Shown piece after piece: positions 25,144 through 43,631 of a stretch of DNA of 64,000 bases. The notes under the pieces were generated by a model that saw only the letters and a list, made by a program, of their open reading frames with translations, was not told where the DNA came from and did not search any database. The first letter of the stretch is position 1. Every line of letters starts with the position of its first letter. The stretch lies in contig NZ_CP042806.1 of the NCBI RefSeq assembly GCF_008000815.1, forward strand, positions 5,394,001-5,458,000, given 5' to 3'. This DNA is from Terriglobus albidus. Lineage in GTDB: Bacteria > Acidobacteriota > Terriglobia > Terriglobales > Acidobacteriaceae. Made by a program: the position numbers and the translations under genes.

Positions 25144-25225
25144 ACCCGCAATATAGTCGCTACGCTGCGATACGACAAAAAGAAATGTGCGGTTAAACGT
25201 CGCGCCTCGACAGTAATGAATTTTG

Positions 25226-25518: not shown

Positions 25519-25537
25519 ACGAATCGAGTGTATGGGT

Positions 25538-26170: not shown

Positions 26171-26211
26171 ACGGCGATTGTAACCCTGTCCGCCAAATTT
26201 GGCACATTAAG

Positions 26212-26240
26212 TTGACAATGGCACAGTGTGCCATTACGCT
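26212..26240 (+). promoter_or_regulatory. RND system 2 promoter with 19-bp palindromic operator
   Basis: TTGACA (26212-26217) and TACGCT (26235-26240) are 17 bases apart. The perfect palindrome AATGGCACAGTGTGCCATT (26217-26235) fills the spacer, so a bound repressor would shut the promoter. Another TTTGGCACATTAAG half-site lies just upstream (26198-26211). Assignment to the divergent TetR protein is inferred. Confidence 0.65.
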
Positions 26241-26278
26241 CAAGTCAGATCTTCACCTCGCGACCCGGAAGCTGCCCG

Positions 26279-27586: not shown

Positions 27587-27598
27587 GGAGTTCCTCTC

Positions 27599-30500
27599 AT
27601 GCACGGTTTAGCTAAACTTTGCGTTCGCCGGCCTGTCTTTGCCACCATGCTGATTCTCTCGCTCATGGTGGTGGGCGCCTTCTCCTACTTCAGCCTCGGA
27701 GTCGATCTGCTGCCCAAGGTCGATGTACCGACCGTCGCTGTGACGGTCGCAGACCCGGGAGCTTCGCCGGAAGAGATCGAGACCGAGATCAGCAAGAAGG
27801 TCGAGGACGCGGTTAACACCATCAGCGGCATCGATGAGCTGCGCTCCAACTCCTCCGAGGGCCAGGCACAGGTCATCATCACCTTCGACCTGGATAAGAA
27901 CGGCGACGTCGCCGCTGAAGAAGTCCAGAACAAGATCAACCTGATCCGCAACGATCTTCCGCAGACGGCGAAGTCTCCGGTGGTGCAGAAGTTCGATCCT
28001 GACGCTGCTCCCGTGCTGCAGATTGCGGTTTCGGCGCCACGGTCATTACGCGACCTCACGCTCATCGCCGACAAGCTGCTGCGGCAGAAGCTTGAGAACA
28101 TCAGCGGGGTCGGCCAGGTACAGCTCGTCGGCGGAGCCAGGCGCGAGATCCACGTCAACGTCGATCCGGAGCGTTTGCGCGCCTACAGCCTGACGATCAC
28201 AGACGTCGTGAACGCCGTGCGTCAGCAGAACCTGGAACTCCCCGGAGGCTCGCTCAACGCGGGCACGCGTGAGTTCACCGTACGCACCATGGGCCGCATT
28301 ACCACCGCGGCACAGTTCAATGACATCGCCATCGCTCCGCGCCAGGGTTATGTCGTCAAGGTCAGCGACATTGGCTCTGCTGAAGACAGCTACGCAGAAC
28401 CCAGAACCTCGGGGCGGTTGAATGGTACGCCGGCGGTCATGCTGGTGGTCTCCAAGCAGTCCGGTGCAAACTCGGTTGAGGTTGCCACCGAGGTCAAACG
28501 ACGGCTCGCCGAGATTGCGCCGACACTTCCCAAAGATGTGCGCACGCAGGTCGTACAGGACCAGTCCATCTTCATTGAAGCTGCGATTGAGTCCATCAAG
28601 CATCACCTGATCGAAGGCAGCATCTTCGCCTGTGCCATCATCTTCGTCTTCCTCGCAAACTGGCGCACCACGCTGATTGCCGCCATCGCCATTCCCACCT
28701 CCATCGTCTCCACCTTCGCGCTAATGAAGGCGATGGGGTTCACGCTGAACCAGATCACGATGCTCGCCCTGACGCTGATGGTCGGTATCGTGATCGACGA
28801 CGCCATCATCGTGCTGGAGAACATCTACCGCTTCATTGAAGAAAAGGGCATGTCTCCCTTCGAAGCGGCGATCGAAGGCACACGTGAGATCGGTCTGGCC
28901 GTCATGGCGACCACGCTCTCTCTGCTCGCGGTCTTTCTACCGGTGGGCTTCATGGGCGGCATCGTTGGCCGCTTCATGAGCTCCTTTGGCTTTACCTCGG
29001 CCTTCGCCATCGCGGTCTCGCTGTTGGTCTCATTCACGCTGACGCCGATGCTTTGCTCGCGTTTCATCAAGGTTCCGGCGAAGAGGGACGGCCATCAGCA
29101 TGCTGACGGTCAACACGGGGCTGGCCAACACGGTTCTAAGGACTCGCGCTTCTTCCGGTACATCAACGGCCACTACCTGCGGCTGCTGGAGTGGTCGATG
29201 GCCCATCGTAAAGCCGTAGTGATGATCTGCGGCGGCACCATCCTGAGCCTGATTCCGCTCTTCATCCTTGTCGGCAAAGACTTCACTCCCGCTGACGATC
29301 AGTCGCAGTTCAATGTTCTGATCCGCACACCAGAGGGAAGCTCTCTGGCGGCGACGACACAGGAGACAGAAGCCATCGCCCAGGCGATCCGCAAGCTGCC
29401 GGGTGTCCAGACCACATTGATGACCGCAGGCGGAGGCACGGACGGAGCAGTGAACAGCGCCAGTATCTACGTCAAGCTGGTGGATGTCGGCGATCGCCAC
29501 GACACGCAGACCGAGCTGATGCAGCAGACCCGTAAGCTGCTGACCACCTTCCCCAGCAACCTGCACACCAGCGTCGAGCTGGTTGCTACCGTCGGCAACG
29601 GAGCCAGCAATGCCCAGGTGCAGTACTACATCCAGGGGCCGGATCTTGACAAGCTGACGCAGTACTCTGATGAGCTGCTGGCGCGGATGAAGAAGATTCC
29701 CGGCGTGACTGATGCGGACTCTTCCCTGCGCAGCGGCAAGCCTGAGGTTCGCCTGGAGATCGACCGTGCCCGTGCTGCCGACCTCGGCGTCTCCGTCAAC
29801 AACATCGAGCAGGCTCTAAATACCCTGGTCGCCGGTGAGACCGCCTCGACCTTCAACGCGGGTGATGAGCAGTACGACGTTCGTGTCCGCGCCGGGGAGC
29901 AGTTCCGCAGCCGCATCGAAGAGCTGAATAAGATTACGGTTCCTTCGACACGCCAGCTGGGTTACGTCGGCCTGAATGAGGTGGTCTCCACGCAGAACTC
30001 TACCGGCCCTTCTTCTGTAAATCGCATCGCGAGGCAGCGGCAGGTGACGGTAAGCTGCAATGTTCTGCCCGGCTACTCGCAGTCGCAGGTCCTCTCTTCT
30101 CTGCAGAAGGCTGTTGCGGAGATGCACCTGGACCCCGACTATCGCACCGGTCTAGCCGGAGCCTCCAAAGAGCTTGGCCGCACCGGCTACTACTTCCTGC
30201 TGGCCTTCGCCCTGACCTTCATCTTCATGTACATCGTGCTGGCGGCACAGTTCGAGTCGTTCATCCATCCGGTGACCATCCTGCTTACACTGCCGCTCGC
30301 TGTTCCCTTCGGCATCCTGTCACTGCTGCTTACCGGGCAGACGGTCAACATCTTCTCCGCGCTTGGCCTGCTGCTGCTCTTCGGCATTGTGAAGAAGAAC
30401 GCCATCCTGCAGATCGATCACACCAACGGTCTGCGCGCCGCCGGCATGCCGCGGTATGAGGCGATTCTGCAGGCCAACCAGGACCGTCTGCGGCCCATCC

Positions 30501-30781
30501 TGATGACCACCCTGGCGCTGGTCGCAGGCATGCTGCCGCTGGTGATCTCGCGCGGTACAGGCTCTGCTACTAACCGGTCGATCGGTGTGCTGGTGGTCGG
30601 CGGTCAATCGCTCTGCCTTCTGCTGACGCTGATCGCTGTGCCGGTCTTCTACTCACTCTTTGAGGACATTGCCGAACACCCCATCTGGAGCAAGCCGGTC
30701 CGTATGGCACAGGCTCTCTTCGCGCGCATTCCCAAGTGGAAGCGCAACACGGTGCCCGCACCCTCCAATGAGGTCGTCTAG
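27599..30781 (+). CDS. RND efflux pump permease, HAE1-type (system 2)
   Basis: 1060 residues; the ATG at 27599 follows AAGGAG. It starts MHGLAKLCVRRPVFATMLILSLMVVGAFSYFSLGVDLLPKVDVPTVAVTV, the classical HAE1 opening. TM4 has MLALTLMVGIVIDDAIIVLENIYRFIEEKG with the Asp-Asp proton relay. The second half repeats the fold (KDFTPADDQSQFNVLIRTPEGSSL; LLLLFGIVKKNAILQIDHTN). A His-rich insertion of about 20 residues near 500 (DGHQHADGQHGAGQHGSKDS) lies between TM6 and TM7 on the cytoplasmic side and is unusual. Substrate unknown. Confidence 0.96.
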   Translation: MHGLAKLCVRRPVFATMLILSLMVVGAFSYFSLGVDLLPKVDVPTVAVTVADPGASPEEIETEISKKVEDAVNTISGIDELRSNSSEGQAQVIITFDLDKNGDVAAEEVQNKINLIRNDLPQTAKSPVVQKFDPDAAPVLQIAVSAPRSLRDLTLIADKLLRQKLENISGVGQVQLVGGARREIHVNVDPERLRAYSLTITDVVNAVRQQNLELPGGSLNAGTREFTVRTMGRITTAAQFNDIAIAPRQGYVVKVSDIGSAEDSYAEPRTSGRLNGTPAVMLVVSKQSGANSVEVATEVKRRLAEIAPTLPKDVRTQVVQDQSIFIEAAIESIKHHLIEGSIFACAIIFVFLANWRTTLIAAIAIPTSIVSTFALMKAMGFTLNQITMLALTLMVGIVIDDAIIVLENIYRFIEEKGMSPFEAAIEGTREIGLAVMATTLSLLAVFLPVGFMGGIVGRFMSSFGFTSAFAIAVSLLVSFTLTPMLCSRFIKVPAKRDGHQHADGQHGAGQHGSKDSRFFRYINGHYLRLLEWSMAHRKAVVMICGGTILSLIPLFILVGKDFTPADDQSQFNVLIRTPEGSSLAATTQETEAIAQAIRKLPGVQTTLMTAGGGTDGAVNSASIYVKLVDVGDRHDTQTELMQQTRKLLTTFPSNLHTSVELVATVGNGASNAQVQYYIQGPDLDKLTQYSDELLARMKKIPGVTDADSSLRSGKPEVRLEIDRARAADLGVSVNNIEQALNTLVAGETASTFNAGDEQYDVRVRAGEQFRSRIEELNKITVPSTRQLGYVGLNEVVSTQNSTGPSSVNRIARQRQVTVSCNVLPGYSQSQVLSSLQKAVAEMHLDPDYRTGLAGASKELGRTGYYFLLAFALTFIFMYIVLAAQFESFIHPVTILLTLPLAVPFGILSLLLTGQTVNIFSALGLLLLFGIVKKNAILQIDHTNGLRAAGMPRYEAILQANQDRLRPILMTTLALVAGMLPLVISRGTGSATNRSIGVLVVGGQSLCLLLTLIAVPVFYSLFEDIAEHPIWSKPVRMAQALFARIPKWKRNTVPAPSNEVV

Positions 30782-30782
30782 C

Positions 30783-32495
30783 ATGAAGCAGTTTGTTATC
30801 GCACTCTCTCTCGCTTCGGCGGCCGCATTCGCACAGGAGGCCTCGCCGGCCTCACCTCCGCTGCCACCTGCTGTTACGCTGCAGATCGCTCCTCGCATCG
30901 GCATCACCGGGGAAGCTCCGATCGCGCTGCCAGACGTGATTCAAGCAGTGCTCGCCAATAATCGCGACATCGAGGTCTCACATCTCGCACAGCGGAAGGC
31001 GGTCCTGAACCTGAAGGCCGCCCGCGGATACTTCGATCCTGTCATCGGAGGTAGTGCGCACACCATGCGCCAGGTCACGCCGGTCTCGTCGTCGCTCGGC
31101 GGAGCCACGAACGGAGCCCTCACACAGAAGGAACTCTATGCCGATCCGCAGATCAGCGGCAACTCCCCCTGGCTGGGAACAACCTACAAGCTCGACTTCG
31201 CTTCGACCCGGAGCAACAGCAGCAACACTTACAACACACTGAACCCGACGTACACCACATCGGCCACGGCGAACTTCACGCAACCGCTGTGGAGCGGCCT
31301 GTTCTTCGACCAGAATCGCGAACGGCTCAAGGTCGCACGCAAGAACATCGCACAGAGTGACGAACAGTTCCGGCAGCGCGTGATTGAGACCACAACTCAA
31401 GCCATCCACGCCTACTGGGAGCTCGACTATGCGCTACGCAATCTCGATGTGCAGATCGAGGCCGTGCGCCTGGCCGAACAGCAGGACGCCAGCAATCGCC
31501 GCCAGGTGGAGCAAGGCACACAGGCGCCGATTGACGTTATCCAGACACAGACGCAGATGTCGACCTATCAGCAGAACGTCTTCAACGCACAGCAGCAGGT
31601 CACCAAGGCAGAGAACTCGCTGAAGGCGCTGATGCTGCCCAATCGGGGCGACCCGCTGTGGAGCGTTGCTCTGAAGACAGCCAGCAGCCCTACGGAGTCG
31701 TCGCCCATCCCCACACTCGAAGAGGCGATGCAGCAGGCGCTCGCCGATCGTCCTGACCTCAAGGCCGGAGCCATCGGAGTTCAGGTCAGCGGTCTGGATG
31801 CACGGCTGGCGCATGAGCAAGCGAAACCGCAGGTCAACCTTACGGCACAGCTTGGCGTGCAGGGGCTTTCGGGCCGCAGCGTGCCGCAGTCCTCCGATCT
31901 CTTCGGAAGCCTGTTTGCTCCGCTGGTCACCCGCATCAACGATCTTTCGACCCTCGCCGGCCTGGCGCCGATCTCACTCTCCAGCGGTAGTAGCTCGAGT
32001 GGAGTTCCGTCGTTCTTTGTCGGCGGCTACGATCAGTCGCTCGGCAATCTGCGCGATGGACGGTTCCCCATCGTCAAGGTCGGCGTTCAGATGTCGTGGC
32101 CCATCGGCAACCGCACCGCGCGTGCGCAGGCCGCTGTTGCCGATGCCAATAAGAAGCAGACCATCGCACAGCAGCAGCAGCTTGAGATGACGGTTGAGAG
32201 CGACGTACGGAACGGCCTGCAGCAGCTTATCAATGCGGACCTTGTGCTGAGTGCCTCGCACCGTGCCGCAATACTCGCGCAGCAGCAGTACGACAGCGAG
32301 CAGCGCCAGTTCAAGGCGGGTACGTCGACTGTTTACCTGGTGCTGCAGCGGCAGAATGAGTTGATCAGCGCCAAGCTGCGTGAGATTCGCGCGGCTGCGG
32401 ATCGCGGTGAAGCCGAAGCAGACTTTGATCGCGCAACGGCGAATACGTTGCGGCGGCAGAATATCGATATTGTGGCGGTTTCGAAGAAGCTGTAA
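30783..32495 (+). CDS. TolC-family outer membrane efflux protein (system 2)
   Basis: 570 residues from the ATG at 30783, one base after the pump stop. The signal peptide is MKQFVIALSLASAAAFAQ. The TolC fold shows VIQAVLANNRDIEVSHLAQRKAVLNLKAARGYFDPVIGGSA near 50 and a C-terminal repeat with ADANKKQTIAQQQQLEMTVESDVRNGLQQLINADLVL near 460. It is longer than usual (about 450) because of Ser/Gly-rich stretches, for example LSSGSSSSGVPSF near 400. It completes the tripartite pump and ends 11 bases from the convergent TIGR03435 gene. Confidence 0.94.
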   Translation: MKQFVIALSLASAAAFAQEASPASPPLPPAVTLQIAPRIGITGEAPIALPDVIQAVLANNRDIEVSHLAQRKAVLNLKAARGYFDPVIGGSAHTMRQVTPVSSSLGGATNGALTQKELYADPQISGNSPWLGTTYKLDFASTRSNSSNTYNTLNPTYTTSATANFTQPLWSGLFFDQNRERLKVARKNIAQSDEQFRQRVIETTTQAIHAYWELDYALRNLDVQIEAVRLAEQQDASNRRQVEQGTQAPIDVIQTQTQMSTYQQNVFNAQQQVTKAENSLKALMLPNRGDPLWSVALKTASSPTESSPIPTLEEAMQQALADRPDLKAGAIGVQVSGLDARLAHEQAKPQVNLTAQLGVQGLSGRSVPQSSDLFGSLFAPLVTRINDLSTLAGLAPISLSSGSSSSGVPSFFVGGYDQSLGNLRDGRFPIVKVGVQMSWPIGNRTARAQAAVADANKKQTIAQQQQLEMTVESDVRNGLQQLINADLVLSASHRAAILAQQQYDSEQRQFKAGTSTVYLVLQRQNELISAKLREIRAAADRGEAEADFDRATANTLRRQNIDIVAVSKKL

Positions 32496-32506
32496 CGACG
32501 TAGCGC

Positions 32507-33244
32507 CTAATCTTCCTTTGGCTCTTTGTTCGCCGCATCCACGACGAGGATCTCCCGGCGGATCTTCTTCGGCTCCAGCTTTAAGCCAAGCTGCTCCTCC
32601 ATCGCAGAAGGCAACGAGGGCAGCCCGGAGTCATTCGTGTCCATGGGTGCAAACTTCAAACTGATCACATAGTTTCCTGTGAGCCCCGTCTCATCCACGA
32701 CTGGGCGGCCTACAGGAATCGTCAGCATACCCGCCAGCGTGGCCATGGACGCACTGCGGTTCTGCACTGCGTCCCTGAGCACATAGCCCTTTTCATCACC
32801 GGGCTCTCCGGTGATGGGGAGCTTCGACCCACCTTTGGCGACCACCAGCGCATAGCCCGGAACTTCACGGGTCTCGCGGTGAACCTTCAGACCGAACCGT
32901 TCCTGCAGCAGCCGCTGTAACGGACCCCGCAACTGCTCGTAGCTGAGCGGAGCGTCAGAGTTCGCCTTCGCCGCAATATCGTAAAGCTCTGAGTTCAGCC
33001 AGCCAGGGCCGCCGGCAACCTGATCGCCATCGACCCCAAAGGCGATCTGAATCAACAGGGATAGCGTTACGTTTCTGGCGGTGAAATGTGGAGCTCCGGA
33101 TGGGCTGATCGAGGTATAACCCTCCTGCTTCACAACCCTTCGGACAGAAGCAACCTCAAAACTTGAAACCACCTGCGCCGCAGCCGGAAGCGACAACGTA
33201 GCAACCACGGCGATACAGAACGCTCTCATCCGCACACGATGCAT
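32507..33244 (-). CDS. TIGR03435 family protein, second copy
   Basis: 245 residues; the start is either ATG at 33244 or ATG at 33229, neither with a good ribosome site. The signal peptide is MRAFCIAVVATLSLPAAAQ. The family blocks FEVASVRRVVKQEG, LQRLLQERFGLKVHRETREVPGYALVVAKGGSKL, VVDETGLTGNYVISLKF and MEEQLGLKLEPKKIRREILVVDAANKEP are all present. It is shorter than the copy at 8717-9646. Probably exported, function unknown. Convergent with RND system 2. Confidence 0.93.
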   Translation of the reverse strand: MHRVRMRAFCIAVVATLSLPAAAQVVSSFEVASVRRVVKQEGYTSISPSGAPHFTARNVTLSLLIQIAFGVDGDQVAGGPGWLNSELYDIAAKANSDAPLSYEQLRGPLQRLLQERFGLKVHRETREVPGYALVVAKGGSKLPITGEPGDEKGYVLRDAVQNRSASMATLAGMLTIPVGRPVVDETGLTGNYVISLKFAPMDTNDSGLPSLPSAMEEQLGLKLEPKKIRREILVVDAANKEPKED

Positions 33245-33404
33245 CCCGATGAAGATAAACCATCGGGATACGTCATAGAAGATGGCTTTGCAAATCCAGC
33301 CGGCATCTCATAGTGCAAGATGACCATGACGCGGAATACCAATGTACTCCAAGCAAGGAGCTGGGCTTCACTACCTGGCATTCATTGCTCTTGTGACTCC
33401 CCTA

Positions 33405-33517
33405 CCCACCCTAGCGTTGCGAGGGTGGGGCACCCGGCAGAGGTAACGAAGCAGGTCCTTCGCTAATCACCCCAGCGAACAAGCTCGCTGGGGACCCCGA
33501 ACGCTCAGGATGACAAG
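33405..33517. repeat. palindromic repeat modules
   Basis: CCCACCCTAGCGTTGCGAGGGTGGG hairpin region followed at 33451-33516 by the ccagcgaacaagctcgctggggacc module ending in caggatgacaa, which matches 7994-8057. The rest of the 33245-33534 gap shows no gene. Confidence 0.72.
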
Positions 33518-33534
33518 GTGAAGACCGCGTCGTT

Positions 33535-33948
33535 TTACCGCAACTGGCGATCTGCTTCCTTGATCGGCATGTCATTGATGCTGGCTTCACGGCGCTGCAT
33601 CAAGCCTGAGGGCACAAACTCCCACAGCTCGTTGCCGTAGCTGCGAAACCACTGACCGCTGTCGTCGTGCCATTCGTAGAAGAACTTCACCGCGATGCGG
33701 TTCTCGCGAAAGGCCCAGAGTTCTTTCTTGAGTTTGTAGTCGAGCTCCCGGTTCCACTTCCGCCGTAGAAACTCGATCACCGCCGGACGGCCATTGAGGA
33801 ATTCGGCGCGGTTTCTCCAGTGCGTGTCCTCGGTGTAAGCCGCAGCAACGCGTTCTGGATCGCGTGTGTTCCACAGGTCTTCCGCAAGCTGCACCTTGCG
33901 TGCTGCCTGTTCCGGATCGGTAAAGGGCGGGGCGATGATGGTGCTCAT
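33535..33948 (-). CDS. DUF1348 / SnoaL-like nuclear transport factor 2 fold protein
   Basis: 137 residues from the ATG at 33948, which follows AGGAGA at 7 bases. The family pattern is clear: [98 protein letters not shown]. These small cone-shaped proteins bind or convert small molecules in a central pocket; members of this subgroup have no assigned reaction. Standalone cytoplasmic gene flanked by repeat DNA on both sides. Confidence 0.9.
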
Positions 33949-34034
33949 AGGGGATCTCCTGCTGCGATCATGGTACGGAGTTGAGATTACGCTCTGATCA
34001 AGGGCAATGCGCCTAACTGGAGAGTCACGAATTT

Positions 34035-34213
34035 GGGTGCCCCACATACGCGCAGCTTATGTGGGAGTATCGAGCAGTAGCTCGATCCGTGTACAGCCCA
34101 CTACAAGGGAGCCAATAATCTTACCGGGACCCTGATTCATACGGAATGACCAACAAAAAGCGGTTCGAGCTTCGCTCGAATGCCCACATAAGCTTCGCGT
34201 ATGTGGGGCACCC
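34035..34213. repeat. MITE-like element with ~31-bp inverted ends, copy 1
   Basis: The left end (gggtgccccacatacgcg...ttatgtggg) is matched by an inverted right end (cccacataagcttcgcgtatg...gcaccc). Inside are TCGAGCAGTAGCTCGA and TTCGAGCTTCGCTCGAA. A full-length relative is at 43443-43617 and a solo end at 38847-38876. It lies between the DUF1348 gene and the end of the MNIO cluster. Confidence 0.85.
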
Positions 34214-34226
34214 GATAGGTGGTTGT

Positions 34227-35084
34227 CTAAAGTGTCGGGCGGCAGAACCATCCGAGCTCTGAGGCAAGCGCGAAGGTTTGTTGCACGGAGGCTGGCTGTT
34301 CCTCGCCGGCAACAACTTCTAAAGCTTCGGCGATTGTCTTCCCTTCTTGCAGCGCGGCCAGCAGCCGGAACTCGCTTTCTTCCAGCGTGCGGTAGTACAC
34401 CACGTCGTCATAGCGATGCACGGCCAGATATCGCCGCTCTGGGGCCATCTCAGGCAATGTGCTCGTGACGATTGTCTGCCGTAGTTGCGCCGCTCCGCTG
34501 TTTACGGCCTTCTCTTCCGGCTTCTTCACTGCAAGCACAAACTCATCGACGGGATAATCCACGGCAAGCAGCCGTAGATGCGGCTGCAGCGCCAGAGATG
34601 ACTCCGGTCCGAGCTGGGCTAGTTCATCCGAAGTAAGCGGCTCGAGCTCAGCGCCATCGAAGGCTTCGACATAGGCCCATTCCAGCCGTGCGATATCCAC
34701 GGCCAGTCGATGTTGCTCGCTGGCGAACGCCGAATGCCGTTCCAGGAACTGCGGCAGATCCGCGCTTAGATCCCGCAAGGTCCACGAGGTCGAAGGACGT
34801 TGTTTCAGATACTCCAACACCAGCGCGTCGAAGCGCTCATCGCCCAACAGCGCCCGCAGCGCGGGATAGTCCTCGGAGACGGCGCTGATCACACGGAACC
34901 AGTACTGCCGGTTGTAGATTTCCAGCCGCTCGAACGAAGTTAGCTCGCTATTAGGACGGATATAGCCAGCCGCAATCTCTTCCATCGACTCGCCTTCGGT
35001 TGTCTGCGACTGCATCGTAAGTTCTGCAGTCAAAGGTCGGCGGACATCCTGCTCCATACGGCGTTGCAGCTCCAGCAGTGTCAT
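34227..35084 (-). CDS. HvfC-type partner protein of MNIO (DUF2063)
   Basis: 285 residues. The N-terminal DUF2063 domain is recognisable: LLELQRRMEQDVRR...YIRPNSELTSFERLEIYNRQYWFRVISAVSEDYPALRALLGDERFDALVLEYLKQRPSTSWTLRDLSADLPQFL (about 3-115). The C-terminal part (about 190-285) ends in a helical RLLAALQEGKTIAEALEVV segment. In MNIO gene pairs this protein binds the precursor and the oxidase and is needed for modification; an old label as DNA-binding is unlikely here. Its ATG overlaps the MNIO stop (ATGA at 35081-35084). Confidence 0.88.
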   Translation of the reverse strand: MTLLELQRRMEQDVRRPLTAELTMQSQTTEGESMEEIAAGYIRPNSELTSFERLEIYNRQYWFRVISAVSEDYPALRALLGDERFDALVLEYLKQRPSTSWTLRDLSADLPQFLERHSAFASEQHRLAVDIARLEWAYVEAFDGAELEPLTSDELAQLGPESSLALQPHLRLLAVDYPVDEFVLAVKKPEEKAVNSGAAQLRQTIVTSTLPEMAPERRYLAVHRYDDVVYYRTLEESEFRLLAALQEGKTIAEALEVVAGEEQPASVQQTFALASELGWFCRPTL

Positions 35085-35935
35085 GCCACCACCTCCTCCA
35101 CAGTTGCCGGCTGCAGAAACTGGTTTGCCTTCAACGCCTCCGCATGCACCTCATCGAAGCTTGGGATTTTGTCATCCCACTCAAGCAACGTCGCCGTCGG
35201 CCCGCAGCGTTCAATGGCGCGCGCGTAGAGACTCCATACCGGATCGAGCACCGGATGATCGTGCGTGTCGAGCGTGTAGCGCTCGAACTGCGAGTGGCCG
35301 GCGATATGGATCTGCGCCACCCGGTCCGCCGGAATGCTGTTCACATACTCCATCGGATCGAACTCATGGTTCCGCGAGGAGACATAGATATTGTTCACAT
35401 CGAGCAGGATGCCGCAGTCGGCGGCATGCACCACCTCGTTCAGGAACTCCCACTCCGTCATCTGCGATTCGTGAAACTCGGCATAGCTGCTGACGTTCTC
35501 CACCGCGACGGGAATCTCCAGAAAGTCCTGCACCTGGCGGATACGTTCCGCAGTGGTCCGCACCGCCTCCCATGTATAAGGCAGCGGCAACAGGTCGTGC
35601 GTATAGCGCCCATCGACACTTCCCCAGCACAGATGGTCCGAGAGCCACGGCGTTCCTGTACGCCGCACCAGGTCCTTTAGTCGCCGCAGATGATCGCGGT
35701 TCGGTGCCTGTGCGCTGCCGAAGTACATCGAGACGCCATGCTGCACTACGCGGTACTGATCGAGGATCTGGTCGAGAATGCGCAGCGGCCTGCCGCCGTC
35801 GACCATGTAGTTCTCTGAGATGATCTCGAACCAGTCGACCACCGGCTTGCGCGAGAGGATGTGGTCGTAGTGCGGCACGCGCAGCCCAATACCGACACCG
35901 TAGTCCGTATATCCATTGAAGCGATTTGCAGGCAT
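35081..35935 (-). CDS. DUF692 multinuclear non-heme iron oxidase (MNIO, HvfB/BufB-like)
   Basis: 284 residues, TIM-barrel family. Candidate metal ligands in conserved blocks: E41 in WFEIISENYM, H66 in VVQHGVSMYFGS, D100 and H101 in LSDHLCW, E146 and N147 in VAVENVSSY, D179 and N181/N182 in ILLDVNNIYVS, H210 and H214 in IHIAGHS, and D223/H225/H227 in LDTHDHP. MNIOs use a di/tri-iron site and O2 to rearrange cysteine residues of a peptide, giving oxazolone-thioamide or thiooxazole groups (methanobactin, TglH and bufferin systems). The substrate here should be the Cys-rich peptide encoded 70 bases upstream. Start supported by GGAG. Confidence 0.93.
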   Translation of the reverse strand: MPANRFNGYTDYGVGIGLRVPHYDHILSRKPVVDWFEIISENYMVDGGRPLRILDQILDQYRVVQHGVSMYFGSAQAPNRDHLRRLKDLVRRTGTPWLSDHLCWGSVDGRYTHDLLPLPYTWEAVRTTAERIRQVQDFLEIPVAVENVSSYAEFHESQMTEWEFLNEVVHAADCGILLDVNNIYVSSRNHEFDPMEYVNSIPADRVAQIHIAGHSQFERYTLDTHDHPVLDPVWSLYARAIERCGPTATLLEWDDKIPSFDEVHAEALKANQFLQPATVEEVVA

Positions 35936-35961
35936 AACAGCTCCATCAAGAGATTGCCGAT

Positions 35962-35991
35962 GAAGACTCGCTATCTGGTCTGCGAGTCTTC
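35962..35991 (-). promoter_or_regulatory. intergenic hairpin between precursor and MNIO genes
   Basis: GAAGACTCGC (35962-35971) pairs perfectly with GCGAGTCTTC (35982-35991) around a 10-base loop. There is no T-run after it. It could lower read-through or stabilise the upstream message, so that the precursor is made in excess over its enzyme. Confidence 0.5.
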
Positions 35992-36005
35992 ACCGGCTTG
36001 CCGCT

Positions 36006-36299
36006 CTAGCTCTTCGGCTTGGAACCGTCGGTGGCGCAGTCGCCCTTGCCCTTGCAGGAGTTCTTGCCGGGGTTCTTACCGCCGCCCTGGCCTTTACAGT
36101 CGTTCTTGCCTTTGCAGGAGTGCTTGGGCAGCTTCTGATCGTCCTGTGCCGTCATCGCAACACCTGCTGCGATGGCAGCGCCGGACACGCTGGCCTCGTG
36201 GCCAGATACGGGCTGTGCGTTCAAACGAGCCGTGGTGCCGCTCAGCAGGCCGGCGAAGGCTGCTGCAAGTGCGAGATTGCTTGCCGTCTTGTGATTCAT
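36006..36299 (-). CDS. bufferin-like secreted RiPP precursor peptide
   Basis: 97 residues. A signal-type N-terminus (NLALAAAFAGLLSGTTARLNAQ) is followed by a small hydrophobic stretch and a Lys/Gly-rich C-terminus with four cysteines at 62, 68, 82 and 88. They form two repeats, CKGKNDC and CKGKGDC, 20 residues apart, each preceded by Ser (HSC, NSC). Precursors encoded beside DUF692/DUF2063 pairs have this build: exported, with Cys in short K/G repeats that the MNIO modifies to bind copper. The start has AAAGGA at 7 bases. An ECF-type promoter lies at 36388-36416. First gene of the peptide-MNIO-HvfC unit. Modification and metal are inferred. Confidence 0.85.
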   Translation of the reverse strand: MNHKTASNLALAAAFAGLLSGTTARLNAQPVSGHEASVSGAAIAAGVAMTAQDDQKLPKHSCKGKNDCKGQGGGKNPGKNSCKGKGDCATDGSKPKS

Positions 36300-36387
36300 G
36301 GTGAAGTTCCTTTCAAGATAAGCACCAGGCTCTGCCTGTGCGGAGGGGATGGGCTCAGGATGCTGTCAGTTTTCCCTTGCCGCTTGG

Positions 36388-36416
36388 TTTGAGACTCCGC
36401 AATGCATTTGGTTACA
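36388..36416 (-). promoter_or_regulatory. ECF-type promoter of the precursor-MNIO operon
   Basis: On the minus strand TGTAACC (36410-36416) is followed after exactly 15 bases by TCTCAAA (36388-36394), about 90 bases before the precursor ATG. The same pair with the same spacing precedes the DoxX-sigma-antisigma operon (37285-37313). The -35 AAC core is typical of ECF sigma promoters. Confidence 0.7.
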
Positions 36417-36437
36417 AGCGGCGGAAGATTTTTTTAT

Positions 36438-37217
36438 TTACTTAACATCGAGAGCCACACTCGTCGCTCCGAGGATCTCTTCCTGATGCGGAACCTGCGC
36501 CAGCAGTACCAGGTGCTGCGCACCATGCGCCAGATGCAGGCTCGAAGGAAGCGCCAGGCGCACGCTCTGTTCACCGTCATTACGAACCGTCGCCACGGTC
36601 GTCATCAGCCGCGCCACTGAAACATGTGTGAGCGAGCGCCCTGAGTTCTCCCCGCGAAGCACACTGGAGCGGTCTGTGTCATCAGTGATTACCGCAACGA
36701 TCTCCACCGGCTTCGCCTTTTCCGAGCCCTGCACCAGCCCTTGCACGGCAAACTTCAGATCGATCGTCTGCGGTTGCACATTCGCAGACGAGATCGTGAC
36801 CTCTACCGACTTCTTTGCCACCTCACGATGCAGCGCATCCTGCAGGGCACGGCTATCGCTGCCAAGTAACTGAACGCGACCGTTCAACACCGCCTGGGGC
36901 GTATATGGCTGCCCATCGGCCAGGCGCGCGGCGTATTTCTCCTGGCGCGCCGTAAAGGTCTCCGCGGAGTACGGGTCCTTCCATCCCAGGCTGTTCCAGT
37001 AGGTCACATGTTCGCTGATGCCGATCACCAGTTGGCCATCCTGTGTCGTCCGTCCATGGACCTGCTGCAGCAGTACATCCGCCTGAGGACAGCTGGAGCA
37101 TCCCTCTGAGGTAAACAGCTCCAGCACCGCAACCTTCTGATTCTGGGGTGGGACGGTTGCCGCATAGCCGCGCAATGAAAGGAAAGCGGCAGCGGCGAGA
37201 AAGATTCGAGCGTACAT
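36438..37217 (-). CDS. secreted DUF1223 thioredoxin-like protein
   Basis: 259 residues from the ATG at 37217, which has GGAGGTG at 6 bases; the ATG at 37232 is less likely. The signal peptide is MYARIFLAAAAFLSLRGYA. The family block VAVLELFTSEGCSSCPQADVLLQQV carries a CSSC redox-type motif near residue 40. It is followed by VIGISEHVTYWNSLGWKDPYSAETFTARQEKYAARL and TPQAVLNGR, all usual in DUF1223. Probably a periplasmic disulfide or metal-handling protein. It lies between the precursor gene and the DoxX operon, consistent with membership of the same stress locus. Confidence 0.9.
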   Translation of the reverse strand: MYARIFLAAAAFLSLRGYAATVPPQNQKVAVLELFTSEGCSSCPQADVLLQQVHGRTTQDGQLVIGISEHVTYWNSLGWKDPYSAETFTARQEKYAARLADGQPYTPQAVLNGRVQLLGSDSRALQDALHREVAKKSVEVTISSANVQPQTIDLKFAVQGLVQGSEKAKPVEIVAVITDDTDRSSVLRGENSGRSLTHVSVARLMTTVATVRNDGEQSVRLALPSSLHLAHGAQHLVLLAQVPHQEEILGATSVALDVK

Positions 37218-37242
37218 AAACAACACCTCCATCAGGCGTCTA

Positions 37243-37272
37243 TCTGATGCCCGTCGCGGCAGGAACGTTACA
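37243..37272 (-). promoter_or_regulatory. possible ECF-type promoter of the DUF1223 gene
   Basis: TGTAACG (37266-37272, minus strand) matches six of seven bases of the -35 motif found at the other two promoters of the locus. The -10 at the same distance reads GCATCAG (or CATCAGA with one more base) and is a poor match to TCTC. Control by the same sigma factor is therefore only possible. Confidence 0.3.
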
Positions 37273-37284
37273 AATCACGCCGGC

Positions 37285-37313
37285 TGTAACCTTTTGCGCT
37301 GTGCTCTCTCTAA
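37285..37313 (+). promoter_or_regulatory. ECF-type promoter of the DoxX-sigma-antisigma operon
   Basis: TGTAACC (37285-37291), 15 bases, then TCTCTAA (37307-37313), about 48 bases before the DoxX ATG. It is identical in -35, spacing and the first four -10 bases to the precursor promoter at 36388-36416. The presence of the sigma gene in this operon implies positive autoregulation. Confidence 0.7.
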
Positions 37314-37361
37314 CGGTGCGGAAAGGGCGGGCGGAATGACCTGCCTCCCACAGGATGGTTC

Positions 37362-37823
37362 ATGGAACCGCTACTTCGTCTCTATCGCAACGCCGCCGGT
37401 GCGCTCTCCAGGCTGCAGTCCCCCATGTTGCTGGCCGTCCGCCTGTACTGGGGCTATCAGTTCGCGCAGACCGGCTGGGGCAAACTCCACCATCTTGCGC
37501 GCATTACCGACTTCTTTACCAGCCTGGGCATCCCCTTCCCCGGTCTGAATGCGCACTTTGTCGCCGGCCTGGAGTTCGCCGGCGGCATTCTGCTGATGCT
37601 TGGCTTGATGTCACGGCCGGTTGCTTTGCTTCTCGCCGGCAACATGTTCGTTGCATACTTGACTGCGGACCGTGAAGCGCTGCTGGCCATCTTCTCCGAT
37701 CCCGGCAAGTTCTACGTCGCCGATCCGTACACGTTTCTCTTCGCCTCCGTCATGGTGCTGATCTTCGGCCCGGGATGGTTCGCGATCGACACTATCATTC
37801 GCAGGAGGCTTGCGAGGCAGTAG
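37362..37823 (+). CDS. DoxX family membrane protein
   Basis: 153 residues; the ATG at 37362 has AGGA at 8 bases. Four hydrophobic segments (about 20-38, 60-80, 83-101, 120-140) with the DoxX pattern LLAVRLYWGYQFAQTGWGKLHHL...FFTSLGIPFPGLNAHFVAGLEFAGGILLMLGLMSRPVALLLAGNMFVAY. DoxX proteins (HvfD/BufD type) are frequent partners of DUF692 peptide systems, where they may move electrons or quinol-linked substrates in the membrane. It is first in an operon with the sigma factor, whose ATG comes 2 bases after this stop. Confidence 0.92.
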   Translation: MEPLLRLYRNAAGALSRLQSPMLLAVRLYWGYQFAQTGWGKLHHLARITDFFTSLGIPFPGLNAHFVAGLEFAGGILLMLGLMSRPVALLLAGNMFVAYLTADREALLAIFSDPGKFYVADPYTFLFASVMVLIFGPGWFAIDTIIRRRLARQ

Positions 37824-37825
37824 CG

Positions 37826-38449
37826 ATGACGCTCCAGGAACAGCAGGGAGAAGCCGAGCTCATCGCCGCCATTCTGGCCGGCGAGACGCAGCTCTACCAT
37901 GATCTGATCCGCCCCTATGAGCGGCCGGTCTATCTGCTGGCGCTCTCGTATGTGAAGAACGAGACCGATGCCGAAGATGTCGCACAGGAAGCCTTCCTCA
38001 AGGCCTTCCGGCATCTCTCGTCCTTTCGGTCTGACGCCAAATTCAGCACCTGGCTCATCAGCATTGCCCTGAATGAGGCTCGCGGACGCCTTCGCCGCCA
38101 GACCGCATCCCGTACCGAATCCCTGGACAAAGATCCTGACGAAGAGGGCGCCGTCTCCCCCGCCCTGTTGCGTGACTGGCGCGAGATCCCTTCCGAGGCA
38201 GTCGAGCGCGGCGAGATCCGCGATCTGCTGCGGAAAGCCGTCGAGACTCTTCCGGAGATCTATCGCGAAGTATTTCTTCTGCGGGACGTGGAGGAGCTTA
38301 ATATCAATGAAACCGCGGAGGCCCTGAACATCAGCGTCTCTGCCGTGAAGGTCAGGCTGCACCGCGCTCGGCTGATGCTGCAGAAGTATCTGGCGCCGCA
38401 GTTGAAGTCGGTAACGAAGCCGAAAAGGAGGTGGTTCGCGTGGTCATAG
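37826..38449 (+). CDS. ECF (RpoE-type) sigma factor
   Basis: 207 residues from the ATG at 37826. Region 2 (about 22-90) reads DLIRPYERPVYLLALSYVKNETDAEDVAQEAFLKAFRHLSSFRSDAKFSTWLISIALNEARGRLRR. Region 4 (about 140-190) reads LPEIYREVFLLRDVEELNINETAEALNISVSAVKVRLHRARLMLQKYL. It should direct RNA polymerase to the TGTAACC-N15-TCTC promoters of this locus. It overlaps the anti-sigma gene by 10 bases, as usual for such pairs. The frame also runs open upstream into the DoxX gene, but that extension is not used. Confidence 0.95.
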   Translation: MTLQEQQGEAELIAAILAGETQLYHDLIRPYERPVYLLALSYVKNETDAEDVAQEAFLKAFRHLSSFRSDAKFSTWLISIALNEARGRLRRQTASRTESLDKDPDEEGAVSPALLRDWREIPSEAVERGEIRDLLRKAVETLPEIYREVFLLRDVEELNINETAEALNISVSAVKVRLHRARLMLQKYLAPQLKSVTKPKRRWFAWS

Positions 38450-38688
38450 AGTGCAAACACGTCTGGACCTACATCTCCGATTACCTTGATGGAACACTCT
38501 CAGAGGAGATCCGCGTGACCGTCCAGAAGCATCTCGAACACTGCGAGCTGTGCTCGGCGATTCTGGACTCGACGCGGAATATCCTTGTGCTTACGGCGGA
38601 TGACCGTGTCTTTGAGCTGCCGGTCGGCTTCAGCGAGCGTTTGCATCAGCGGCTGGAAGAAGAGCTCAAGCCGAAGAAGGGTTCGTGA
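38440..38688 (+). CDS. zinc-binding (zf-HC2 type) anti-sigma factor
   Basis: 82 residues from the GTG at 38440, with AGGAGG at 8-9 bases. The ZAS motif is H31-x3-C35-x2-C38 (HLEHCELC), with a further Cys5 and His7 near the start (ECKHVWTYISDYLDG). There is no membrane segment, so this is a soluble cytoplasmic anti-sigma factor. Such proteins release their sigma factor when thiols are oxidised or metal displaces zinc. That fits induction of a copper-type peptide system, but the signal is inferred. Confidence 0.92.
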   Translation: MVIECKHVWTYISDYLDGTLSEEIRVTVQKHLEHCELCSAILDSTRNILVLTADDRVFELPVGFSERLHQRLEEELKPKKGS

Positions 38689-38702
38689 GGACGACGGTCT
38701 TT

Positions 38703-38876
38703 TTGTTTGTCATTTCGTAGCGATAGCGGAGAAATCTGCTTTTAGCAGCTGTACCTCAGCGGCTAAAGCCGCGGGTTTTTGCGAGCCTGTACGGGACGGC
38801 TGAAGCCGTCCCCTTAAGCAAACCATTCGCGCTCCCGCGCGAACTTCCCACATAAGCTTCGCGTATGTGGGGCACC
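38703..38876. repeat. mixed palindromic repeat modules
   Basis: In order: ttgtttgtcatttcgtagcg module (38703-38742), CAGCGGCTAAAGCCGC and GGGACGGCTGAAGCCGTCCC hairpins (38756-38815), and a solo end of the MITE-like family, cccacataagcttcgcgtat... (38847-38876). They separate the anti-sigma gene from a convergent membrane-protein gene; the rest of the 285-base gap is featureless. Confidence 0.78.
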
Positions 38877-38973
38877 CGGCCGGTGGCTCACGACGAGCGG
38901 ATAACGACACCATTCAACAATTCAACCATTCAACTATCGGAGCCGAAGGCTCCGCCTAAACTAGCAACTATTT

Positions 38974-39393
38974 CTACGGTACGTGGTGAATGATGTGGTG
39001 CGTTGCTGCTTCTGCCGTCACCAGCAGTAGCGTCAGCACGGCCAGCGTGATCTGGAACCTTTCCGACCATAGCGTCTTCGAGGTGGGCGGCGTGATACGC
39101 CACTGCGAGGCCGGCCGGTTGCGCAGCGATCTGATCCTCCAGATCACGTAGAGATTTACGAGCGAACCAACAACCGCGACGATCATCATCGGGATGCGGA
39201 TTGCGTCCTGGTGAAAGCCCGATGCCGGACGATGTACTCCAGCCGCGGCGGCCAGGGCACTGAGGCCGATCACCACACGCACTCCGCTGATGGCCATCAC
39301 TGCCGTACATGCACTCTGCAGCACAATGAAGCCAAAGCTGGTCAACGTTACCAGCCAGTTCGGTTTCGCCTGCTTTTCCGTCTCAACCGCCAC
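38974..39393 (-). CDS. hypothetical integral membrane protein
   Basis: 139 residues from a GTG at 39393, which has CCGGAGGG just upstream. A longer open frame exists but runs antisense-frame through the beta-lactamase gene and is rejected. It has about four hydrophobic stretches (15-35, 38-52, 67-85, 112-128) and ends ATHHIIHHVP, a His-rich tail. No family recognised. It follows the serine hydrolase gene on the same strand after 47 bases and may share its transcript. Confidence 0.65.
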   Translation of the reverse strand: MAVETEKQAKPNWLVTLTSFGFIVLQSACTAVMAISGVRVVIGLSALAAAAGVHRPASGFHQDAIRIPMMIVAVVGSLVNLYVIWRIRSLRNRPASQWRITPPTSKTLWSERFQITLAVLTLLLVTAEAATHHIIHHVP

Positions 39394-39440
39394 ACGTCCC
39401 TCCGGCCTCTTTATCGTACCCGTAAGGCAGACATGAAGGC

Positions 39441-40685
39441 CTAACGTCTGCGGTGGCGAGGCGCCGGCTTGACCACGTGGTGTACTGCTTTCTTTACAAA
39501 AACAGGCCGCGGCGGAGGAGGCGGCAAGGGCGGCAGGCCTGCCATTGCGAGCAGCAGATCGTTCGCGCCATAGAAGAGATTGAAGCCCGTTCCTACCGGA
39601 CCATCGGTTGCGGCAAGAAATACAGCGGTATGGTGCGCCTGGTTGATGGCGATGTAGTTCCGAAAGCCCGCGCCACCGCCGGTCTTCTGGACAATGTGCG
39701 AGGGATCGTCGGGAGGAAGAAGATGAATCCATCCCAGTCCCACTCCGCTGGGTATACCGGCATGGTCCAGACCGACCTGGTGGGCCAGTTTCTCCGGTGG
39801 GAAGTAGACATCCTGCGCGACCTTGTCCTGCACCGGCATGCCGTTCTCTCCGCGATGCAGCAGATACTTCAGCCAGATCGCCATATCGGTTGCCGTGGAG
39901 TAAAGACCGGAACTGCCCGCGGTATTCTCCGTCACGGTGCATGGACCTTCATCATGCCCACTGACCAGCAGCTTGCTGCACTGGGCATCGGTCGGGAAAA
40001 AGGTCGTGTTGCCCATGTGCAGCGGGTTGAGTGTACGTTCTGCCAGCAGCGCGGCGTACTGCTTATGTGTCGCGGATGACAGTGCGTCGCTCAACAGATC
40101 GAAGCCGACGTTCGAGTAAAGCGCTGACGAACCAGGAGCATTGTGCAGCCGCTGCTTCGGCAGCCAACGCCAGCGGGTCTTGTAATCCGGATAGGTAAAG
40201 TGCGGCGTATGCGGTGGAGCCCCGGCGATCTCCCGCGAAAGCCCGGCCGTGTGCGTCGCCAGATCCACCAGCGTGATGGGTGAGTCGCCGCGCGTCGGCA
40301 CGACGATCCGCTTCGGAGAATACTGCTGCAGCGGATCGTCCAGACGGACGACTCGATCGGTGGCAAGCTTGCTGAGCACATCTGTCGTGAAGATCTTCGT
40401 CAGCGAGCAGAGCCGCAGCACTGAATCCTGCGAGGGGAGCTGATGCGACCCCGGAGCGGTCTCCCCATAGCCGTGAAAAAAGACCTGGTCGTCACGCACC
40501 ACCACCAGCACCATGCCTACGGAACCGGAGAGAACGAACAGGTCCTGGCCCATCTCTTCAGCGGTCTGAAGGGCGGGTAACGCCGGCGACGCGGCCGCGG
40601 CTTTTGCCGAGGCAGCAGGAACACCGCAGAGAGACAACAAGGCAGGCAGCAGATACCACAGACGTGCGCGACGCATGATTTCCAT
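39441..40685 (-). CDS. class C beta-lactamase-like serine hydrolase
   Basis: 414 residues with a signal peptide (MRRARLWYLLPALLSLCGVPAASA). Active-site motifs of the beta-lactamase/transpeptidase fold are visible: S-x-x-K as CSLTK near 93, Y-x-N as ALYSNVGF near 188, and KTG as VQKTGGGAGF near 340. The C-terminus is Pro- and basic-rich (PPPPPPRPVFVKKAVHHVVKPAPRHRRR). Probably periplasmic: a peptidase, esterase or beta-lactamase acting on peptidoglycan-like or small substrates. The start could be 40685 or 40676. Confidence 0.9.
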   Translation of the reverse strand: MEIMRRARLWYLLPALLSLCGVPAASAKAAAASPALPALQTAEEMGQDLFVLSGSVGMVLVVVRDDQVFFHGYGETAPGSHQLPSQDSVLRLCSLTKIFTTDVLSKLATDRVVRLDDPLQQYSPKRIVVPTRGDSPITLVDLATHTAGLSREIAGAPPHTPHFTYPDYKTRWRWLPKQRLHNAPGSSALYSNVGFDLLSDALSSATHKQYAALLAERTLNPLHMGNTTFFPTDAQCSKLLVSGHDEGPCTVTENTAGSSGLYSTATDMAIWLKYLLHRGENGMPVQDKVAQDVYFPPEKLAHQVGLDHAGIPSGVGLGWIHLLPPDDPSHIVQKTGGGAGFRNYIAINQAHHTAVFLAATDGPVGTGFNLFYGANDLLLAMAGLPPLPPPPPRPVFVKKAVHHVVKPAPRHRRR

Positions 40686-42884: not shown

Positions 42885-43376
42885 CTACAGAAGAGACTGA
42901 ATCGTCTTCTCGAAGTCTTCCTTGTTGCCGAATCCCTGCTTTACCGCGCGGATCTTTCCGGTGCGATCGATCAGGTACGTGACTGGTAAGGCATCCGTAA
43001 TACCATACGCCGCAGCAGACTTCCCCTTGTTCACACCCATGGGATACGTGACCTTCAGTTTGCGGGCGACCGGGCCGGCGACCTTCCATCCACCTTCATC
43101 CATGGAGACGCCCAGGACTACAAATCCCTTGTCCTTATATTTCTGCGAAAACTCTTCGAACCACGGCATCTCGACTCGACACGGAGCACACCACGTCGCC
43201 CAGAAGTTGAGCAGAATCACCTTGCCCTTGTACTGCGACAAGTTGATGGTCTGCCCGGACTCCGAAGCGACCGAAAGTGCGGGAGCCACTTTGCCCACCG
43301 GCAAAGGGTCCGCAAAAAACGGCTGCGCGGAAGCGAACGTAAGTGCTGCGAGAACTGCCGAACGAAGGAGTTTCAT
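42885..43376 (-). CDS. TlpA-type exported thioredoxin-like protein
   Basis: 163 residues from the ATG at 43376. The signal peptide is MKLLRSAVLAALTFASAQPFFA. The AhpC/TSA-redoxin fold shows ALSVASESGQTINLSQYKGKVILLNFWATWCAPCRVEMPWFEEF, with the active-site WCAPC near residue 56, and PVTYLIDRTGKIRAVKQGF. It probably reduces or exchanges disulfides in the periplasm. No ribosome site; a TACAAT box lies only about 10 bases before the ATG, so the message may be nearly leaderless. Separated from the kinase gene by a strong terminator. Confidence 0.93.
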   Translation of the reverse strand: MKLLRSAVLAALTFASAQPFFADPLPVGKVAPALSVASESGQTINLSQYKGKVILLNFWATWCAPCRVEMPWFEEFSQKYKDKGFVVLGVSMDEGGWKVAGPVARKLKVTYPMGVNKGKSAAAYGITDALPVTYLIDRTGKIRAVKQGFGNKEDFEKTIQSLL

Positions 43377-43442
43377 CGTGTGTCTATTGTAGATGTCGTG
43401 GTGCGCGGCGTGTCTTTTGTTTGTCATTTCGGGGAGTCAGCC

Positions 43443-43617
43443 GGGTGCCCCACATACGCGAAGCTTATCTGGGAGTATCGAGCGTAAGCTCGATCCGTTT
43501 TGTTGTCATCTCGTAGTGAACCCGAAAAGTCCTTTTCTTTTTGATTCCTCACCAAGAGGATAAAAGCGGTCTCGCTTCGCGAGATGCCCACATAAGCTTC
43601 GCGTATGTGGGGCACCC
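43443..43617. repeat. MITE-like element with ~31-bp inverted ends, copy 2
   Basis: Left end gggtgccccacatacgcgaa... and an inverted right end ...ttcgcgtatgtggggcaccc, with one mismatch (ttatctggg for ttatgtggg). Internal TCGAGCGTAAGCTCGA and TCTCGCTTCGCGAGA palindromes. It is 175 bp and matches 34035-34213 in ends and layout. It lies downstream of RND system 3. Confidence 0.85.
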
Positions 43618-43631
43618 GATCCGTGGCTACT

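Follow-up and report, generated by a model that had tools for sequence, protein, structure and literature searches.

The bufferin/captophorin family has been described only recently, and among its closest described relatives to the locus considered here are the Buf2/BufA2 systems of Caulobacter and Legionella (PMC12452194). The locus (34227-38688) lies in a stretch of 64,000 nucleotides from Terriglobus albidus (Acidobacteriota; NZ_CP042806.1, positions 5,394,001 to 5,458,000), hereafter the window, and encodes the precursor of a ribosomally synthesised and post-translationally modified peptide (RiPP), an MNIO enzyme with its DUF2063 partner, and an extracytoplasmic function (ECF) sigma factor with a zinc anti-sigma (ZAS) protein. 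It shares with Buf2/BufA2 a precursor gene directly before the MNIO gene as well as DUF2063 and DoxX, and its six-Cys relatives share the Cys spacing x5, x5, x6, x5. In contrast to Buf2/BufA2, however, the window precursor has four Cys and scores below the BufA2 cut-off, a zinc anti-sigma is linked to it, and the C5-C6 spacing of its family is 5 rather than 12 residues. According to the excerpted text of PMC12452194, approx. 90% of Buf2 precursors have six conserved Cys and others twelve, sigma factors occur in Buf1 clusters and are absent from Buf2 clusters, and in Buf1 the outer Cys pair forms a disulphide while the inner Cys are modified. The published chemistry of the class is a loss of 4 Da per Cys together with copper binding (PMC13097082, PMC12452194). 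For its own six-Cys precursors, PMC8692599 gives 290 relatives, almost exclusively from Proteobacteria. Among the literature matches listed, none concerned such clusters in Acidobacteriota; "Acidobacter" is absent from the main texts of PMC12452194 and PMC13097082 (figures and supplements lay outside this search), and a Granulicella omics paper makes no mention of these genes.

With respect to regulation, three systems are comparable. The Neisseria operon NMB2140-NMB2145, for which autoregulation was shown in 2010, encodes DoxX, three then-hypothetical proteins, rpoE and MseR (PMC2893595); it thus shares with the window DoxX, an ECF sigma factor and a ZAS anti-sigma in an autoregulated unit, with identical zinc-ligand spacing. 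Its middle genes can be equated with precursor, MNIO and DUF2063 because they are homologous to the Haemophilus cluster, which comprises DoxX, a periplasmic protein, COG3220 and a DUF2063 protein (PMC7907618). Moreover, gonophorin, a thiooxazole peptide, is the product of an MNIO cluster in gonococci (PMC13097082, where HvfA is also named). The Neisseria genes form one operon, whereas those of the window form two divergent units, and the Neisseria regulon includes msrA/msrB; the excerpted text of PMC2893595 mentions neither a DUF1223 protein nor the additional membrane protein described below. In Haemophilus, RpoE2-HrsE likewise pairs an ECF factor with a small cytoplasmic anti-sigma and acts on the DoxX-MNIO-DUF2063 cluster, but control is exerted in trans and msrAB belongs to the regulon (PMC7907618). 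Caulobacter sigmaF-NrsF shares with the window the ECF control of precursor-MNIO-DUF2063-DoxX operons and a -35 element GTAACC, but differs in its DUF1109/NrsF anti-sigma and in a -10 element CGAA at N16 (PMC3511200). Given the Neisseria operon, the Haemophilus cluster and the gonococcal thiooxazole peptide, the plan of the locus is not new; its new parts are the lineage, the precursor variant, the promoter code, the DUF1223 protein and the membrane protein. The Neisseria and Haemophilus precursors are both presumably of the EGKCG type.

Within this context, the RiPP locus of T. albidus is real and conserved, and it has an ECF/ZAS switch of its own. We put at roughly 0.7 the probability that the locus regulates itself and makes a Cys-derived periplasmic peptide of the bufferin/captophorin class that probably binds copper, and a function in copper or thiol stress is likely.

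Gene content and conservation of the locus

All seven genes between 34227 and 38688 are open frames that match their own families in Pfam/NCBIfam profile searches. Every assignment of the sequence-only reading, which had proposed this gene set, is therefore borne out, including the CSSC motif of the DUF1223 protein. The minus-strand unit comprises the DUF1223 gene (36438-37232, start perhaps at 37217; PF06764, 180 bits, 7.4e-53), the gene for the 97-residue precursor with its four-Cys core HSCKGKNDCKGQGGGKNPGKNSCKGKGDCATDG (36006-36299), the gene for the BufB-type MNIO enzyme (35081-35935; PF05114, 5.5e-109) and that for the DUF2063 protein, a partner of the BufC/HvfC/PME1 type (34227-35084; PF09836, 66.7 bits against a cut-off of 27.2, 2.3e-18), whose start overlaps the MNIO stop. 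The MNIO gene thus adjoins that of its partner and is directly preceded by that of a Cys-containing precursor. The DUF1223 protein appears by eye to be exported, matches PDB entry 2axo (1.6e-23) and belongs to a thioredoxin-fold family (PMC3091736). The almost gapless plus-strand unit consists of doxX, encoding a membrane protein (37362-37823; PF07681, 68 bits, 1.1e-18), the gene for the 207-residue ECF sigma factor (37826-38449; Sigma70_r2 and r4_2 matches) and the gene for a zinc anti-sigma of the RsrA/MseR type (38440-38688; zf-HC2, 43.1 bits, 4.4e-11). The more likely start of the sigma gene is the ATG at 37826, two bases past the doxX stop, the listed open reading frame (ORF) start at 37775 falling inside doxX, and that of the anti-sigma gene is more likely a GTG at 38440 (or 38431), overlapping the sigma end. 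The two divergent units share the intergenic region 37233-37361.

Against NF050167, the model for the bufferin maturase BufB, the window MNIO scores 355 bits, above the curated cut-off of 310, and its alignments with the PDB relatives 3bww, 8hci and 7fc0 show shared H, EN, D, H, D-x-H and E positions. The DUF2063 protein falls below the cut-off of the NCBIfam HvfC model (53.5 bits; cut-off 142), as does DoxX with the HvfX model (55.3 bits; cut-off 80). Searches of the T. albidus genome gave a single convincing match for MNIO, for the precursor (2e-59, with the next at 0.09) and for DUF1223. Among 150 genomes sampled from the window's family, that of T. albidus included, 47 have MNIO.

Loci in relatives were found by scanning genome contigs with MNIO alone. 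The best 80 of 567 confirmed loci were named; these are the closest relatives and no random sample, mostly from Acidobacteriaceae and other Acidobacteriota, with some records labelled Verrucomicrobiota. Since 75 of these 80 MNIO-found loci carry a homologous CKG precursor upstream of MNIO, 78 carry DUF2063 and 64 carry DoxX within 4.5 kb, the association of the genes is confirmed not to be due to chance. Three of the five named loci without a peptide have fewer than 420 bases upstream. The DUF1223 gene, which lies within 3 kb of MNIO in 5 of the 80 named loci, is a lineage-specific add-on. Sigma and anti-sigma genes both lie within 4.5 kb in 26 of the 49 loci that have at least 4.5 kb on either side. 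Gene content and orthology are thus supported, and the view of the sequence-only reading, an MNIO/DUF2063 RiPP locus of the bufferin type in an Acidobacteriota, is upheld. In one relative (L130:6498-8456), a second, degraded copy of the cluster was observed, in which the precursor is open and MNIO and DUF2063 are fragmentary; an open MNIO gene lies elsewhere in that genome.

As to the extent of the locus, the seven genes within 4.5 kb stand as described, but an eighth was overlooked: a gene for a conserved membrane protein of 139 residues (38974-39393, minus strand), convergent with the anti-sigma gene. It occurs in 22 of 26 loci with an anti-sigma gene and in none of 23 without (L002 and L003 were left out of the search, and L002 was scored as a miss in the former count). 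The gene belongs to the locus, and because it is conserved beside the anti-sigma gene, the unit extends to 39393. Across 30 sequences, Cys29, His61 and His132 are invariant, and three long helices are predicted (predicted local distance difference test score, pLDDT, 80). The protein has no Pfam match above cut-off, and a PDB fold search returned none at E <0.001 (best E 0.24).

Promoter sites, the zinc anti-sigma and the stress they may serve

The upstream regions of the precursor genes contain a motif, TGTAAC(C/T)TTT-N14-TCnnA. In the form GTAAC[CT]-N17/18-TCNNA, it precedes the precursor in 36 of 70 relatives, whereas dinucleotide shuffling predicts 0.1 and the opposite strand gives 4; a broader pattern was found upstream of 43 of 94 precursors and 0 of 99 MNIO genes, and elsewhere upstream of 10 of 84 DoxX, 5 of 42 sigma and 4 of 7 DUF1223 genes. 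Six of the loci missed (L009, L010, L014, L017, L021 and L024) have TGTTAC(C/T) at the same spacing, which was seen by eye afterwards and is not counted. In the window, ECF promoters are predicted for the precursor operon (36388-36416, minus strand; TGTAACC-N17-TCAAA) and for doxX-sigma-anti-sigma (37285-37313, plus strand; TGTAACC-N17-TCTAA). A matrix derived from 40 sites in 33 relatives, with the window and its three nearest relatives excluded and the sites picked by a core-fixing pattern, ranks the doxX promoter first in the window (28.8) and the precursor promoter second (21.5), the third site scoring 10.5. We take the spacing of these promoters to resemble that of RpoE-type promoters.

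The sigma factor of the window shows 51-98% identity to 34 counterparts from other MNIO loci. It is 24-25% identical to two plasmid-borne sigma factors (L135 and L136) located beside BufA2 operons with NrsF/DUF1109, and at this identity an orthologue of the sigmaF kind was rejected. Its anti-sigma is a zf-HC2 and not an NrsF/DUF1109 protein, by eye has no membrane segment, and has the predicted zinc ligands C5, H31, C35 and C38. The arrangement C-x25-H-x3-C-x2-C is found in this protein and in 37 of 37 homologues (E <1e-15, fetched MNIO loci), and its spacing is identical to that of MseR (ligands at 4/30/34/37) and RsrA (11/37/41/44; PMC2893595), although the score against the RsrA model TIGR03988 is 32.1 bits, below the curated cut-off of 62.5. 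Anti-sigma homologues of at least 95 bits are found in 29 of 47 family genomes with MNIO and in 7 of 103 without (Fisher p 1.6e-12, with the threshold chosen after the list had been seen and genome kinship ignored), and a match of some kind at E 1e-12 in 87 of the 150. Both the promoter sites and the zinc-site spacing are supported, and the predicted sites before doxX-sigma-anti-sigma and before the precursor argue for the proposed self-regulation by the locus's own ECF sigma/zinc anti-sigma pair.

Inducer, Cys chemistry and copper binding are inferred, and the following course of events can be proposed. The zinc anti-sigma, as in the ZAS family, would retain the ECF sigma factor in the cytoplasm until thiol-oxidising or metal stress perturbs the C/H/C/C zinc site and releases it. 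The sigma factor would then fire the TGTAACC-N17-TC(A/T)AA promoters of the precursor-MNIO-DUF2063 and doxX-sigma-anti-sigma operons. DUF2063 would present the precursor, with its signal peptide serving as leader, to MNIO, which would convert some Cys to 5-thiooxazoles; the product would exit via Sec and bind Cu(I/II) in the periplasm, while DoxX, the CSSC DUF1223 protein and the membrane protein might handle thiols or copper in the envelope.

Several observations weigh against this reading. The motif is limited to 36 of 70 relatives and also occurs in 7 of 20 loci without a linked anti-sigma; the comparison with loci that have one (17 of 25; Fisher p 0.04) depends on the N18 spacing, which was allowed only after the misses of a strict N17 test had been seen, and with N17 alone the difference is gone (11 of 26 vs. 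6 of 22, p 0.37). In the 6.4-Mb genome, TGTAACY-N17-TCWAA, a pattern composed after both window sites had been seen, matches the doxX and precursor promoters alone, but a reversed control pattern likewise gives two matches; thus, the evidence lies in the position of the sites and not in their number. Upstream of DUF1223 in the window there is no good site (matrix score -5.7), and control of this gene by the same promoter was rejected there, the site being off-consensus; L004, L005 and L006 have a site upstream of DUF1223 by the broader pattern. Of the 36 genomes with a 95-bit anti-sigma homologue, seven are without an MNIO match; conversely, such a homologue is missing from 18 of the 47 MNIO genomes. 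The window precursor scores 26.5 bits against the BufA2 model NF050166 (curated cut-off 60), this model has no match in the T. albidus genome at E 0.01, and the predicted structure of the precursor is uninformative (mean pLDDT 51.5). Finally, the ten ORFs scanned in 32507-40685, seven of which are the locus, include no copper ATPase, CueR or Cus gene, whereas a Pseudomonas mandelii plasmid locus (L133) has a metal P-type ATPase near its BufA2 cluster.

The best surviving alternative, a serious one even if we consider it the less probable, is that the locus responds not to copper but to thiol stress of oxidative or hypochlorite origin, with the modified peptide, DoxX and DUF1223 guarding envelope thiols and metal binding being secondary. 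The RsrA-type zinc site speaks for it. In L125 and L127, sigma, anti-sigma, DoxX and DUF1223 occur together with no MNIO gene in the stretch, and the two genomes (81% and 77% complete) have no MNIO match at all; this part of the locus may therefore live apart from the peptide, which points to thiol/redox handling. Sigma/anti-sigma homologues also lie 0.8-2 kb from cytochrome b561 genes (L122:6558-9986 and L123:2734-3441), and L122 includes a molybdopterin oxidoreductase that recalls the YedY gene in the Caulobacter sigmaF regulon. In Haemophilus, RpoE2, which controls the DoxX-MNIO cluster, was tested under hypochlorous acid (PMC7907618). However, the characterised MNIO-PME1 cases all install thiooxazoles, and their products generally bind copper (PMC13097082); PMC12452194 lists oxazolin with a different Cys-derived, copper-binding group. 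Furthermore, Caulobacter sigmaF belongs to the heavy-metal response (PMC3511200), and sigmaE expression in meningococci is unchanged by oxidants (PMC2893595). Because related ECF systems have been published for both heavy-metal stress (Caulobacter sigmaF) and hypochlorite stress (Haemophilus RpoE2), two readings are live, of which metal stress is one.

The precursor and its probable loss of two cysteines

The 97-residue peptide with CKGKNDC and CKGKGDC repeats, first noticed in the sequence-only reading, is confirmed. Its N-terminus resembles a signal peptide (by eye, AAFAGLLSGT); AAxAGLLxGT is conserved in the precursor alignment, and a helix is predicted at low confidence for residues 4-20. 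The usual core among relatives is CKGKNDCKGQGGCKSSDNGCKGKNSCKGKGGCATDG, with six Cys, and in the 75 loci with a peptide, six Cys were counted in 56, four in 14 and three in 2, with one locus each having five, two or an unparsed number. The window precursor retains Cys 1, 2, 5 and 6, fewer than the six or twelve of Buf2. These four are exactly the invariant Cys of an alignment of 63 sequences (the window and 62 of 71 parsed relatives; L016, L020, L022, L025, L030, L043, L044, L054 and L079 were omitted, of which L043 with three Cys and L044 with two would break the invariance, and L019, L064, L070 and L072, with three Cys, were unparsed and hence outside it). Within this alignment, the four-Cys conservation is supported.

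The six-Cys acidobacterial family has the spacing C-x5-C-x5-C-x6-C-x5-C-x5-C, whereas four proteobacterial BufA2 peptides from plasmid loci have C-x5-C-x5-C-x6-C-x5-C-x12-C and score 88.5-105.6 bits against the BufA2 model. Scanned singly, the precursors of six relatives reach 18.2-40.9 bits (cut-off 60); nevertheless, the model matches 61 of the 63 aligned precursors at E <=0.01 (best 5.5e-12). Since the spacings match those of BufA2 but for C5-C6, and since nearly all members match the model at that threshold, the family can be read, from its sequences, as a divergent Buf2 branch. A precursor of the DUF2282 (Buf1) or EGKCG/oxazolin kind was considered and rejected, as Pfam and NCBIfam gave no DUF2282 or HvfA-type match and the sequence contains no EGKCG. 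Pfam searches with the 63 precursors gave just 3 weak DUF7640 matches, and a plasmid search with a relative's precursor gave no match. The description of a K/G-rich core unlike the EGKCG type therefore stands, but not its novelty: the window core is, as judged from these alignments, a shortened, Cys-depleted derivative of the known six-Cys BufA2 type.

In a tree of MNIO and DUF2063 (84 rows, quick method, midpoint root), the rows with the window's four-Cys type, 15 in all, group in a single clade (support 99) that is nested within six-Cys rows. Because of this nesting, and because BufA2 has six Cys, six is probably the ancestral state, and the window's clade would have lost Cys3 and Cys4. The tree requires at least three changes between six and four Cys. 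Outside this clade, four Cys are found in L033 and, as a pair, in L007 and L023; judged by eye, the missing Cys are the same two. By analogy, the window peptide may follow the Buf1 plan. If the Buf1 rule holds, the mature peptide would be approx. 10 Da lighter than the reduced unmodified form (2 x 4 Da for Cys and 2 Da for the disulphide). A more far-reaching proposal, to be taken as tentative, is that Acidobacteriota have a distinct, loop-shortened branch of Buf2. Here, the two central Cys would have been dropped by one lineage and, independently, by at least two more, so that the Buf1 plan (one disulphide and two thiooxazoles) was reached by convergence, and a private RsrA-type sigma switch would be combined with a dedicated thiol/copper relay made up of the periplasmic CSSC protein and the Cys/His membrane protein.

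Alternatively, the locus might be a Buf2 bufferin cluster of the usual kind, with no more than drift in its peptide, so that its novelty is confined to the host. The MNIO score above the BufB cut-off, the Cys spacings that the six-Cys relatives share with the four proteobacterial BufA2 peptides and the Neisseria operon of similar plan are in keeping with this view, but it is unlikely in light of a BufA2 score far under the cut-off, a C5-C6 spacing of 5 rather than 12 residues, the joint loss of Cys3 and Cys4, with three or more six/four changes required by the tree, and the additional conserved membrane gene. That the four-Cys peptide is a decaying copy whose modification has ceased, as the two lost Cys and the degraded second cluster of L130 might suggest, is very improbable given a well-supported clade of 15 rows, each with an MNIO frame and a four-Cys peptide.

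Neighbouring genes and wider significance

The surroundings of the locus (21568-32495 and 42885-48043) encode three RND pumps together with two adaptors and one protein of the TolC type; the gene at 42885-43427 is that of a TlpA/ResA-like thioredoxin (all named by eye). The flanking RND/TolC genes were rejected as part of the unit: no window gene is among the 25 most widespread gene clusters shown, in a test that covered 26000-50000 of the window and 78 named loci (smaller clusters and 21568-26000 lay outside it). A palindromic repeat, CCCACATAAGCTTCGCGTATGTGGGGCACCC, occurs in five copies in the window with at most 3 mismatches, on both sides of the locus (34035-34065 and 43443-43473 on the minus strand; 34183-34213, 38847-38877 and 43587-43617 on the plus strand). 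Its 27-base core has 42 copies in the genome (at most 2 mismatches), with seven inverted pairs 119-157 bases apart, and the repeat is REP-like (REP, repetitive extragenic palindromic).

Related clusters were also observed on plasmids. In L133, the BufA2 cluster has a metal P-type ATPase/MerR pair on one side and TolC/RND genes on the other, and in L139 a DUF2282 (Buf1) cluster lies among mercury genes on a Rhodanobacter plasmid. In L135 and L136, from Asticcacaulis and Sphingomonas plasmids, BufA2 operons adjoin the genes for a sigma factor and NrsF/DUF1109, and a DUF2282 (Buf1) gene lies in the vicinity.

The locus bears on the published claim that Buf2 clusters have no sigma factors (as stated in the excerpted text of PMC12452194). 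Should the window family be assigned to Buf2, it would be an exception to this statement; L135 and L136 are further exceptions, though a DUF2282 gene is nearby in both. An unnamed membrane protein is indicated as a component of the system, and through the precursor variant and the promoter code the circuit is open to direct tests. That the same two Cys were lost repeatedly amounts to a natural experiment on which Cys need modification. Likely copper-binding thiooxazole peptides would be extended to a large group of soil bacteria.

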